Assembly (NCBI GenBank): GCA_022573895.1
Contig: JACZTB010000006.1
Coordinates: 1-62,957, forward strand
DNA length: 62,957 bases
Source of the DNA: Nitrososphaerota archaeon
GTDB taxonomy: Archaea; Thermoproteota; Nitrososphaeria; Nitrososphaerales; Nitrosopumilaceae
Direction: 5' to 3'
Within the stretch, counting starts at the first letter, position 1. Every line of letters begins with the position of its first letter. Both the position numbers and the translations under genes were made by a program. Positions 6,867 through 12,930 of this stretch are shown piece after piece. The notes under the pieces were generated by a model. It did not search any database, had not been told where the DNA came from, and worked only from the letters and a program-made list of their open reading frames with translations.

Positions 6867-6908
6867 TCAAGAAGATTATATTATAGACAGAATGATTTGC
6901 AAGTACTA

Positions 6909-7085
6909 ATGAGATTCTCTAGCTTATTCCGTAAAAAGAAAAAGGAAGAACTAGAACCATCTAAAGAAGAATCAACTCCAGAACCATCTAAAGAAGAATC
7001 AACTCCAGAACCATCTAAAGAAGAATCAACTCCAGAACCATCTAAAGAAGAATCAAAGATGGAAAAAAATAATGAAAATTCGTAG
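6909..7085 (+). CDS. Small tandem-repeat protein (EPSKEESTP repeats)
   Basis: 58 residues from ATG 6909; an in-frame TTG at 6897 is possible but less likely. A basic, hydrophobic head (MRFSSLFRKKKKEE) is followed by three and a partial copy of a nine-residue acidic, Pro/Ser-rich repeat encoded by a perfect 27-base tandem repeat. The tail is MEKNNENS. The head could bind membranes or nucleic acid with a disordered tail. The opposite strand is also open here only because of the repeat. A similar head-and-acidic-tail design occurs in the peptide at 10036. Confidence 0.55.
   Translation: MRFSSLFRKKKKEELEPSKEESTPEPSKEESTPEPSKEESTPEPSKEESKMEKNNENS
6954..7055. repeat. 27-bp perfect tandem repeat, 3 full copies plus partial
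   Basis: The unit begins gaaccatctaaagaag and is 27 bases long. Full copies lie at 6954-6980, 6981-7007 and 7008-7034, with a 21-base partial copy at 7035-7055. All are identical, which implies recent expansion by slippage or gene conversion. It keeps the reading frame of the host gene. Confidence 0.95.
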
Positions 7086-7293: not shown

Positions 7294-7464
7294 TTAACGA
7301 TATTTTGCTTTTCTTTTTGGTCTTAGTAGAGTATTACAACAAGGACATTGTGCTCCTTGATAGTTTAGATATGCTTCGCAAGCAGTGCATCTTTTAATCC
7401 CAAAATCATATCTTTTTTTGTCAGACCTATACCTTTCACAAATCCCTCTACACGTCAAGGCAAT
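7294..7464 (-). CDS. Archaeal zinc-ribbon protein with probable ATT start
   Basis: 56 residues. The family pattern is clear: ALTCRGICERY at the N-terminus, CTACEAYL, then CPCCNTLLRPK, giving four to six zinc-ligand cysteines. Members usually start MALTCRGIC. Here the corresponding codon is ATT at 7464-7462, overlapping the TAA of the upstream zinc-ribbon ORF by one base (TAATT, like the common TAATG). A longer TTG start at 7497 gives residues that do not fit the family. Role unknown, probably nucleic-acid or protein binding. Confidence 0.65.
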   Translation of the reverse strand: MALTCRGICERYRSDKKRYDFGIKRCTACEAYLNYQGAQCPCCNTLLRPKRKAKYR

Positions 7465-7580
7465 TAAGGTACAAGAATTCCTTTGCAGGCAGGACAAACT
7501 TTTTTAGATTTTGTCATTAATGTTACTGAAAAAACATTAGAACAATTAAGACAAACTTTTAGATAACTCCCAGAATTCAC
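7464..7580 (-). CDS. Small zinc-ribbon protein, 38 aa
   Basis: GTG 7580 to TAA 7466-7464. Two CxxC knuckles (VCLNCSNVF and VCPACKGILVP) separated by about 18 residues make a minimal zinc ribbon. An ATG inside (MTKSKKVCPAC) would remove the first knuckle, so the GTG start is preferred. It overlaps the next zinc-ribbon gene by one base, implying translational coupling. Function unknown. Confidence 0.55.
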   Translation of the reverse strand: MNSGSYLKVCLNCSNVFSVTLMTKSKKVCPACKGILVP

Positions 7581-9950: not shown

Positions 9951-10035
9951 AATTGAGATTAATCCATCTAATTCTATTTGCGTCCATTATTTCCGAAAAT
10001 ACACCGGTATATACCAGAGTGAAACAGATTATAGT

Positions 10036-10152
10036 ATGTTTAAAAAAATAATTGAAAAACTGAAATTTGGTTCTTGTAAAACCAAAGTCGCTAGTGACGT
10101 AAATGCATTCACAGAATCTGAGAAGAAGAAACCAGAGGATGCAGAAAAATAA
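10036..10152 (+). CDS. Microprotein 1 of cluster: basic head, acidic tail
   Basis: 38 residues, ATG 10036 to TAA 10150-10152. The basic amphipathic start (MFKKIIEKLKFGSCKTK) and acidic, Lys/Glu-rich end (SEKKKPEDAEK) resemble the repeat protein at 6909. The stop is followed directly by the ATG of the next ORF with no gap. It opens a run of six tiny genes on the plus strand. Function unknown. Confidence 0.5.
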   Translation: MFKKIIEKLKFGSCKTKVASDVNAFTESEKKKPEDAEK

Positions 10153-10260
10153 ATGACATATCATTGCAAACATTGCAGTTTTAGTTGGGATGCATCTGAA
10201 GGTGATATTCAAAAATTACTCCTCCATGAAAAGACTCACCAAAAAAAGGTTTCAACCTAA
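10153..10260 (+). CDS. Microprotein 2 of cluster: C2H2 zinc finger
   Basis: 35 residues, starting immediately after the stop of the preceding ORF. CKHCSF supplies two Cys and HEKTHQ two His at the usual finger spacing with a helix between (GDIQKLLLHEKTH). This is one complete C2H2 finger with a short basic tail. Single-finger proteins of this kind are frequent in this archaeal phylum; targets are unknown. The fourth ORF is a paralogue with the same HEKTH ending. Confidence 0.65.
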   Translation: MTYHCKHCSFSWDASEGDIQKLLLHEKTHQKKVST

Positions 10261-10356
10261 ATGTTGACTTGTAATAAATGCTATAATGAGCATCATGATC
10301 AATGTATGGGAAAAGCTGGAATGTTTAACTGCGGTTGCAAGTGTTTTAAAAAATGA
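10261..10356 (+). CDS. Microprotein 3 of cluster: Cys/His-rich peptide
   Basis: 31 residues, ATG directly after the previous stop. Six Cys and two His in a short chain (TCNKCYNEHHDQC, then CGCKCFKK) suggest metal binding. The spacing CxxC, HH, C, CxCxC is unlike a C2H2 finger and could hold zinc or copper. Its TGA overlaps the next ATG (ATGA), pointing to translational coupling. Confidence 0.55.
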   Translation: MLTCNKCYNEHHDQCMGKAGMFNCGCKCFKK

Positions 10357-10484
10357 AATATCAATGCAACGAATGCGATTTTCATTGGGAAGGAACTTCA
10401 TACACTTTTGAAAAGGTACGTGAACATGAAAAAACTCATTTGAAAAAGAATGTATCTAAAACATTCAGGATAGACATAACGTAA
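10353..10484 (+). CDS. Microprotein 4 of cluster: C2H2 zinc finger
   Basis: 43 residues, ATGA overlap with the previous ORF. CNECDFHWEG gives the Cys pair and HEKTHLKK the His pair. It is clearly related to microprotein 2 (same finger length, Trp after the second Cys, HEKTH), so the two probably arose by duplication. The basic tail may contact nucleic acid. Its TAA overlaps the next ATG by one base. Confidence 0.65.
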   Translation: MKYQCNECDFHWEGTSYTFEKVREHEKTHLKKNVSKTFRIDIT

Positions 10485-10555
10485 TGTCCATTTCTCCTAA
10501 AGACACCATGCTTCTAGAAAACAATGTATTTGAAATGGATAATATCTATGATTAA
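10484..10555 (+). CDS. Microprotein 5 of cluster: 23-residue acidic peptide
   Basis: ATG overlaps the preceding TAA (TAATG); ends TAA 10553-10555 inside the start of the next ORF. Sequence MSISPKDTMLLENNVFEMDN and three more residues. Without Cys or other motif, it may only couple translation between its neighbours. Supported by position rather than content. Confidence 0.35.
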   Translation: MSISPKDTMLLENNVFEMDNIYD

Positions 10556-10664
10556 GAAAAAGTGTGATAGATGTGGATCTATTTTAGGTACTGAAAGCAA
10601 GAAAACTAAACAGCGGTTTTGTGGCAATTGTAAAAAGAAATTTCAATTATGTCGAGACCAGTGA
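10548..10664 (+). CDS. Microprotein 6 of cluster: zinc ribbon
   Basis: 38 residues, ATG 10548 overlapping the previous ORF by eight bases. Two knuckles (CDRCGSIL and FCGNCKKKF) with 14-16 residues between form a typical zinc ribbon, on a strongly basic chain (MIKKK, KKTKQR). This resembles ribbons that bind RNA or DNA. Last gene of the run; 163 bases without coding potential follow to 10828. Confidence 0.6.
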   Translation: MIKKKCDRCGSILGTESKKTKQRFCGNCKKKFQLCRDQ

Positions 10665-10827: not shown

Positions 10828-10977
10828 ATGGCACAAACTAAAGCTCAAAGAAGTGAAGCAGCTAAAAAAGCAGCAAGTAAAAAAACAGCTCCAAAGAGAA
10901 AGGCAGCAAAACGCAAAGCAGCTCCAAAGAAGCGTAGTGTAAAGAAAACTACAAAATCTAAAGGAAGAAAACGATAA
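10828..10977 (+). CDS. Histone H1-like Lys/Ala-rich peptide
   Basis: 49 residues, almost only Lys, Ala, Arg, Ser, Thr and Pro (MAQTKAQRSEAAKKAASKK, then AAPKKRSVKKTTKS). Such chains resemble the C-terminal tail of histone H1 and bacterial Hc1/AlgP-type proteins and would coat nucleic acid without sequence specificity. ATG 10828. A hairpin with a later T-run follows the stop. A second very basic repeat protein lies at 51536. Confidence 0.75.
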   Translation: MAQTKAQRSEAAKKAASKKTAPKRKAAKRKAAPKKRSVKKTTKSKGRKR

Positions 10978-11224: not shown

Positions 11225-11353
11225 ATGTCACAAGACAGAAAAATGTACAAATGTACATGTGCTGACTGCGGAAAAGATTCTGAAGTTCCTTTTGAACCAA
11301 AAGAAGGCAGACCAGTATATTGTAAAGAATGTTTACCAAAACACCGAAAGTAG
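11225..11353 (+). CDS. CxxC-x17-CxxC zinc-binding protein
   Basis: 42 residues, ATG 11225. YKCTCADCGKDSEVPFEP and YCKECLPKHRK give CxxC ... CxxC separated by 17 residues with Gly-Arg-Pro-Val before the second knuckle. This is the pattern of the small archaeal/bacterial CxxC-x17-CxxC family. It is probably a single zinc-binding unit; the role is not known. Convergent with tbp. Confidence 0.75.
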   Translation: MSQDRKMYKCTCADCGKDSEVPFEPKEGRPVYCKECLPKHRK

Positions 11354-11427: not shown

Positions 11428-11988
11428 TTAGTCATAGACCATTAATTTTTTCTCTTCAAGCAAACTATGAATTTGATTGACAGAACGATGAACATCTTTT
11501 TCAAGTTTAGCACCAACACGGACTAATTTACCAGATGCAAAAATTAGAATCACAGTTTTTGGATCAAGCATCCTGTGAATCAATCCTGGAAATTGTTCAG
11601 GTTCATACATGCTCCTAGGAAGAGTTCTAGCTGCTTGTTCCAAGTTAACCTTGCCTCCAAGATTAATTGAAGAAACAATATTTTGTATTGAAACTATAGG
11701 TTCATTTTTAATTTTGATTTTACCTTTTCTTAACATTTTCGCTACCCTAAATACTGCAGTTTCTGCTAATTCTTTGGACTTGGCTCCAGTACACACCATA
11801 TTTCCTGTGCTAAAAAGTAATATGCCAGTTTTTGGATTTTTAAGTCTAAAAACAGCTCCTGGAAAGTGTTCTGGATGATACTCTACACCTGGAAATTTTT
11901 TTGTAATATCTACAAGATCTAATCTTTGATTTATTGTTGCAGTAGCTACTACATTGGCTATTGCAATTTTAGGTTTGGTTTTTGTCAT
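11428..11988 (-). CDS. tbp: TATA-box-binding protein
   Basis: 186 residues, the usual archaeal TBP length, with the two-fold repeat clearly visible: FPGVEYHPEHFPGAVFRL ... GILLFSTGNMVCTGAKS in half 1, and MYEPEQFPGLIHRMLDPK ... VILIFASGKLVRVGAK in half 2. TBP bends promoter DNA and recruits TFB and RNA polymerase. ATG 11988. It lies 21 bases behind the TFB gene at 12010-12930 on the same strand, so TFB and TBP are probably co-transcribed. No acidic C-terminal tail. Confidence 0.97.
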   Translation of the reverse strand: MTKTKPKIAIANVVATATINQRLDLVDITKKFPGVEYHPEHFPGAVFRLKNPKTGILLFSTGNMVCTGAKSKELAETAVFRVAKMLRKGKIKIKNEPIVSIQNIVSSINLGGKVNLEQAARTLPRSMYEPEQFPGLIHRMLDPKTVILIFASGKLVRVGAKLEKDVHRSVNQIHSLLEEKKLMVYD

Positions 11989-12009: not shown

Positions 12010-12930
12010 CTACTGATCTTCACACTTGGATAATCTTAGACCTTTGTATCTATTTCTGATAGTTACCTCAGTTACATTTGCAGCTTCGGCAATATCTCGT
12101 TGAGTCATATTTTCATTATTTTTTACACATGCCAAGTACAGTGCAGCAGCAGCTAATCCCATTGGATCCTTGCCAGCTGATTCCTTAGTTTCTTGAGCAA
12201 TTTTGAGTACTTTAGCTGCATAACGTTTTGTCTTTTCTGTAATTCCAAGCTTACTTGAAATTCTTGCAACACATTGAATTGGATCAACAACAGGCATTTT
12301 TAGTTCTAATTCTTGATGCAGTATTCGATAACATCTTGAAATATCTTTTTTCTTAATGTTACCTGCATCAGCAACATCCTTTAGGGTTCTAGGAGTTTCT
12401 GTATCTCTGCATGCAGCATAAAGGGCTGCTGCAATCAATGCTGAAATGGAACGTCCTCTAACAAGTCCTTTCTCAAGTGCTTTTCTGTAAATGTATGATG
12501 CTTTTTCAATTACATTATCAGAAAGTGAAAGTTTGTCTTTTAGTGTTGATAATTGACTTAATGCTTGTCGGAGATTTCTATCTGAAGATGCATGTACTTT
12601 GCTTCTACTATCCCAAGTTCTTAGTCTCTCAATTGTACTTTTCATAGCCGATGTGAGTGGTTTTCCAGATGAGTCTTTGTTTACAGGATTAATGATAGTA
12701 GAAAGTCCCCTATCATGCATTGCAAGCGTTGTTGGGGCACCAGTTCTAGTAGGATCTGTGCCGCCTTCTTTTGAAAATGATCTCCATTCAGGTCCAGAAT
12801 CTTGCAATTCCTCAGAAACCACATAACCACATTTCCCACAAAATCTTTCCCCTGTTACATCATCTGTCAACATGGTATTTTTTCCACAACGTTTGCAGAT
12901 ACTATCTGTATGGATAACTTCTAAAACCAA
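12010..12930 (-). CDS. tfb: Transcription initiation factor IIB, paralogue 2
   Basis: 306 residues from TTG 12930. The zinc ribbon has Cys12, Cys15, Cys31 and Cys34. The linker includes GPEWRSFSKEGG, followed by two cyclin repeats and the BRE-reading helix (MTQRDIAEAANVTEVTIRNRY). It is closer to paralogue 3 (24242) than to paralogue 1 in the linker TWDSRS and in the repeats. Followed after 21 bases by tbp, so expression of the two general factors is probably linked. No other known start fits the ribbon better. Confidence 0.95.
   Translation of the reverse strand: MVLEVIHTDSICKRCGKNTMLTDDVTGERFCGKCGYVVSEELQDSGPEWRSFSKEGGTDPTRTGAPTTLAMHDRGLSTIINPVNKDSSGKPLTSAMKSTIERLRTWDSRSKVHASSDRNLRQALSQLSTLKDKLSLSDNVIEKASYIYRKALEKGLVRGRSISALIAAALYAACRDTETPRTLKDVADAGNIKKKDISRCYRILHQELELKMPVVDPIQCVARISSKLGITEKTKRYAAKVLKIAQETKESAGKDPMGLAAAALYLACVKNNENMTQRDIAEAANVTEVTIRNRYKGLRLSKCEDQ

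Follow-up and report, generated by a model that had tools for sequence, protein, structure and literature searches.

The window, by which we mean the whole stretch of 62,957 nt of nitrososphaerotal DNA that was analysed, carries a succession of six very short open reading frames at 10036-10664. A preliminary description of this DNA had taken them for six overlapping microproteins, four of them Cys-rich or zinc-finger-like, translated in a coupled manner and acting as a regulator complex or a metal-handling group. The question is whether these frames are genes and, if so, what kind of unit they form.

Results

All six ORFs are present with the lengths and junctions described. Read from the sequence, the junctions from ORF1 to ORF6 are TAA/ATG, TAA/ATG, ATGA, TAATG and an 8-nt overlap. 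The features of the run are:

9987-10017, plus strand: module-specific promoter, match to sequence model R1 (E=2.1e-5), with a core ACACCGGTATATACC that ends near 10015
10036-10152, plus strand: ORF1, the head gene F1, 38 aa, motif MFKKIIEKLKFG..DVNAF.ESEKKK
10153-10260, plus strand: ORF2 (F2), 35 aa, a single C2H2 finger, Y-x-C-x2-C-x-F-x-W ... H-E-x2-H
10261-10356, plus strand: ORF3 (F3), 31 aa, a Cys/His-rich peptide, CxxCxxxxHxxC...CxC
10353-10484, plus strand: ORF4, a second F2-family finger, 43 aa, in ATGA overlap with ORF3
10484-10555, plus strand: ORF5, 23 aa, probably no gene and a spacer between the second F2 and F4, absent in genome G116
10548-10664, plus strand: ORF6 (F4), 38 aa, a basic zinc ribbon, CxxCG...CxxC

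A chance run of ORFs was ruled out by dN/dS, by the gene order kept in relatives and by a Markov control: among 60 first-order Markov versions of the window, no chain (junctions of -8 to 0) was longer than four ORFs, versus the six observed, so that the run exceeds chance. Extraction of homologues by HMM from other loci showed that the order F1-F2-F3-F2-F4 is kept in two further Nitrosopumilus genomes (G114 and G116), three in all with the present one. Moreover, ORF1-ORF2-ORF3 correspond to a trio F1-F2-F3 that recurs in related genomes, and an F2 copy right after F3, the position of ORF4, is also found in G002, G111, G114 and G116. Pooled Nei-Gojobori dN/dS over the less saturated pairs was 0.39 for F1, 0.38 for F2, 0.18 for F3 and 0.12 for F4 (the latter from few pairs), with F1 sometimes weakly constrained in individual pairs (pN/pS of 1.28 versus G116). 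The two signs of gene reality that the preliminary description had named, conserved order and dN/dS below 1 in relatives, were thus both found. On this comparative evidence we regard ORF1, ORF2, ORF3, ORF4 and ORF6 as conserved genes, and ORFs 2, 3, 4 and 6 are indeed the four Cys-rich or zinc-finger-like frames. ORF5 was dropped as a gene: F4 homologues in other genomes carry no ORF5, and in G116, which keeps the flanking genes in order, F2 and F4 are only 22 nt apart, so this frame is probably not a gene. The real set therefore consists of five genes, the last of which is set off by a gap of 63 nt. Nor was F4 kept as a fixed member of the head, since it is also found free-standing; three genomes nevertheless share the order of five genes.

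F1 is hydrophilic, basic at its N-terminus and conserved along the whole peptide (MFKKI..KL and DVNAFKESEKK); it displays neither a cysteine-ligand motif nor conserved ligands, and no transmembrane segment was seen by inspection. F2, F3 and F4 are in contrast putative zinc binders, to judge from their motifs and invariant Cys and His. In F2, residues C5, C8, H25, H29 and W12 are invariant, and the ligand spacing is C-x2-C-x16-H-x3-H, with a C-H gap of 16 instead of the usual 12. Its AF2 model (mean pLDDT 82) predicts a ββα unit (strands at 2-4 and 11-13, helix at 19-33) which, together with the two Cys and two His, would make F2 a classical C2H2 fold. The nearest PDB folds in Foldseek were mostly C2H2 fingers, although none was significant at the length of F2 (E above 4), and matches to curated Pfam families were below the cut-off. 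A lone C2H2 finger usually binds DNA weakly unless it is extended or multimerised. F3 packs six to seven Cys into 31 aa; its fold model is of low confidence (pLDDT 60), and for this reason a weak PHD-like sequence similarity was set aside. F4 depicted zinc-ribbon matches below threshold in Pfam and NCBIfam, the best NCBIfam match being HVO_0758 with 13 bits versus a cut-off of 70. For F1, F2 and F3 there were no above-threshold matches in Pfam, NCBIfam, PHROGs or PADLOC.

The consensus that most copies in Nitrosopumilus (about 40 homologous loci) have ahead of F1 is AATTAMGYCRGTATATAYC, in which GTATATA begins 29-31 nt before the F1 ATG. Given this distance, an mRNA started there should be leaderless. 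A strict pattern, MGYCRGTATATAYC, was found at 21 exact sites in 20 genomes; all 21 were located 20-22 nt before an F1-type ORF, which was followed by F2 in 20 cases, and the reversed pattern, used as a control, gave no site in the same 20 genomes. The promoter of the window, with its TATA about 27 nt ahead of the ATG and CGGTATATACC at 10005-10015, is a variant that was missed by the strict pattern and found by the model R1. Wherever they were inspected, significant R1 matches (E below 0.002) were upstream of F1-like ORFs, including modules with a truncated or divergent F1. This promoter type, for which we use the short name GCCGGTATATA, did not occur elsewhere in the tested genomes and is thus specific to the module. 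It precedes 50 of the F1 loci that have F2, and another promoter, for example TTTATA in other genera, precedes 32; its conservation could partly reflect the descent of duplicated cassettes. An inverted repeat GGCGTAA...TTACGCC showed 46% complementarity at the best offset versus 18-38% at others, and 6 of 56 promoters reached 6/7 in it; this putative repeat, of modest complementarity, is left as a lead.

The position of F1, always first and straight under the promoter, could also mean that it is mainly a leader peptide, whose translation primes the zinc-microprotein genes behind it and whose product is of minor importance. This would agree with those loci in which a truncated or divergent F1 still precedes zinc microproteins (L162, L152, L154 and L363). 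However, F1 is under selection at the amino acid level, as its pooled dN/dS indicates, and keeps its two motifs along the whole peptide, and we consider this explanation improbable.

To delimit the family, we carried out profile searches in 136 Nitrosopumilaceae genomes with a completeness of at least 90%. The architecture count gave 109 F1, 144 F2 and 97 F3, and examination of the DNA of all the F1 loci placed F2 directly downstream of F1 in 82, mostly at coupling distance. What follows F1-F2 is variable: F3; F3-F2-F4, as in the window; F3-Z4; F3-Z5; Z1; Z1-Z2; Z3; Z3-F2-Z1-Z2; Z4; or Z6. The Cys-rich microproteins of these tails belong to at least eight families, namely F3, F4 and Z1-Z6; members of Z1-Z6 are likewise Cys-rich and measure about 29-60 aa. 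The run of the window is, then, a single representative of a family of modular microprotein operons in the Nitrosopumilaceae. In a wider sample of the order, F3 was present in 105 of 300 genomes, all within this one family and mostly Nitrosopumilus, Nitrosarchaeum and other Nitrosopumilaceae. The junctions are also characteristic: F1 to F2 is mostly -4, 0 or +1 across genomes, F2 to F3 mostly -1, 0 or +1, and F3 to F2 always -4. Such a set has the geometry of termination-reinitiation, from which coupling is predicted, and the recurrence of the same offsets across genomes argues strongly for the translational coupling proposed in the preliminary description.

The second module copy of the present genome (G000, contig C51) has lost the promoter and carries Trp instead of the first F3 Cys, and on these grounds may be decaying. 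This copy and other degenerate ones (L162, L046), the multi-copy and patchy distribution, the two-gene core with overlapping frames and the swapped neighbours are all traits that a toxin-antitoxin or defence-like selfish cassette would share, with F1 as a toxin held by F2 and the tails as accessories. Nevertheless, PADLOC gave no match, F1 had no above-threshold match in Pfam or NCBIfam and is a hydrophilic peptide without an evident transmembrane segment, and the pair F2-F3 exists without F1, joined to Alba. Nor were relatives of F3 found in IMG/VR or PLSDB, or of F4 in IMG/VR, and a viral or plasmid origin is unsupported for F3 and F4 by these searches. We judge such a cassette very unlikely.

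On the side opposite to the promoter, the module of the window converges with genes of the general transcription machinery:

11428-11988, minus strand: TBP gene, convergent with the module (PF00352, E=1.7e-52)
12010-12930, minus strand: TFB gene beside the TBP gene (PF00382, E=5.7e-41)

This vicinity is statistically supported for TBP. Of 67 clusters in 19 genomes, 9 had a TBP gene at a distance of 2 kb or less, versus 0.48 expected under uniform placement; the nine include orthologous loci (G013/G097/G047 and G000/G016), so that the effective placements are about six. Adjacency to TFB and Alba is documented by examples. Among the matches listed, about a third of the distinct modules had a TFB gene in their locus of roughly 3 kb, and most modules adjoin neither TBP nor TFB. 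In at least five genomes, F2 starts directly behind an Alba stop codon, with zero-nt junctions, and is followed by F3 (loci L171, L051, L053, L057, L019 and L006). At L171:2615-4357, Alba-F2-F3 is followed by a 79-aa gene without assignment and then by TFB, a layout that has the appearance of a chromatin/transcription operon.

Several observations accompany these. Stand-alone F3 genes at G000:C79:52343 and G000:C74:3242 are within about 100 bp of TBP genes, on the opposite strand. The whole G000 genome carries five TBP genes and 35 TFIIB-repeat matches which, at two repeats per TFB, correspond to about 17 TFB genes; this exceeds the 4-11 reported for ammonia-oxidizing archaea (PMC7554672), for an assembly that is fragmented and has 2.5% contamination. 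Of the microproteins that the preliminary description placed around the run, those at 10828 and 11225 are separate genes: 10828-10977 (plus strand) encodes a Lys/Ala-rich basic protein of 49 aa that resembles an H1 tail and had no family match, and 11225-11353 (plus strand) a 42-aa protein of the known CxxC-x17-CxxC family (TIGR04272, PF23477), separate from the module. Farther upstream, a small ORF at 6897-7085 (plus strand) shows a tandem PSKEESTPE repeat behind a basic N-terminus (RFSSLFRKKKKEE), and 7294-7580 (minus strand) holds a pair of overlapping Cys-rich ORFs, of which the one with 38 aa (CLNCSNVF...CPAC) is similar by eye to the Z3 tails.

The neighbourhood bears on two further explanations. 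According to the first, the products handle metal, as metallothionein-like zinc or copper buffers or chaperones under a promoter induced by metal stress; F3 and several tails are Cys-rich, and the conserved promoter implies a common control. Yet F1 lacks conserved ligands, F2 is a predicted folded finger with one site, an unsystematic look at the inspected flanks revealed no metal transporter or copper-oxidase gene, and the recurring neighbours are TBP, TFB and Alba, all of which makes this explanation unlikely. The second, that these are RNA- or ribosome-associated zinc microproteins acting as translation rather than transcription factors, draws on sub-threshold matches of F4 to eS31/S27ae and of F2 to L37ae zinc motifs, and on Alba, a protein that binds RNA as well. 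The modules are, however, accessory and patchy, so no core ribosome parts, and the TBP association and the TFB neighbours also speak against this possibility, which we hold to be slight. Between the two roles put forward in the preliminary description, the predicted C2H2 fold and the TBP, TFB and Alba neighbours thus favour the regulator complex, and the metal-handling role gained no positive support.

Discussion

The explanation to which we give about an even chance is that the modules encode a coordinated set of zinc microproteins, associated with nucleic acids or transcription and made up of a core, F1-F2, that stays constant while the tail varies. A promoter dedicated to the module, with a TATA box and, upstream, a conserved GCCGG element, would start the transcript without a leader, at the F1 ATG or close to it. 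From F1, ribosomes would then proceed to F2 and to the variable Cys-rich tail (F3, a second F2 and F4 in the module of the window) by termination-reinitiation at the overlapping stop and start codons, yielding coordinated amounts of each microprotein. The zinc-binding products might act jointly as small nucleic-acid- or transcription-associated factors, with F1 and F2 as the common core and the tail setting the partner or target. More tentatively, they could represent a new class of regulatory operon, the co-translated peptides of which form alternative complexes that tune TBP/TFB or Alba functions. Such a class would be defined by the dedicated promoter, a constant core of F1 and the one-finger F2, and interchangeable zinc tails, and could place a combinatorial layer on top of the general transcription factors, which are expanded in ammonia-oxidizing archaea.

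Few classical regulators are known from ammonia-oxidizing archaea, which have many TBP/TFB paralogues, and the modules are candidates for the missing regulatory parts. These microprotein operons are repeated, conserved and largely unannotated, and they illustrate that genes as short as 31-38 codons, which gene callers are likely to miss, can form swappable sets that are predicted to be co-translated. The exact frames can now be looked up in existing ribosome-profiling, RNA-seq and peptide data. Searches of a set of open-access papers, a part of the literature, turned up neither these families nor microprotein operons of a head-plus-tail type, and those for zinc-finger small proteins of Nitrosopumilus gave nothing on the present genes.

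The closest known proteins are the one-domain zinc-finger µ-proteins of Haloferax volcanii (HVO_2753, HVO_0758 and others; PMC6562870, PMC10716476, PMC11241148), which are likewise below 70 aa and have one predicted zinc site. They are C(P)XCG zinc ribbons, which F4, Z3 and Z5 resemble; F2 is in contrast a C2H2 finger, and the ligands of F3 follow a different pattern. The haloarchaeal proteins are recognised by two C(P)XCG motifs, whereas F2 has one CxxC plus HxxxH, F3 CxxC..HxxC..CxC, and F4 only CxxCG plus CxxC. The word "operon" is absent from PMC6562870, and several motif-predicted zinc-finger microproteins of Haloferax are reported to be zinc-free (PMC11241148). Similarly, Brz of Halobacterium salinarum (PMC2253796) is a small archaeal zinc-finger protein that affects transcription, but it is encoded by a single gene regulating its neighbour bop and not by an overlapping microprotein array. 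Brz and the Haloferax µ-proteins are precedents for proteins of this size serving in regulation or as stress factors (PMC6562870, PMC10716476, PMC11241148, PMC2253796). Ros-type regulators, named in PMC6562870, share with F2 the presence of one C2H2 finger in a prokaryote; F2 differs in being a stand-alone finger of 33-43 aa, and no Ros match was seen in the family searches that were run. Finally, ammonia-oxidizing archaea carry 4-11 TFB and 2-5 TBP genes; the excerpts of the paper that reports this (PMC7554672) mention no microprotein partners, and in the same lineage the modules are found near TBP genes above chance, with TFB genes as neighbours in several examples.
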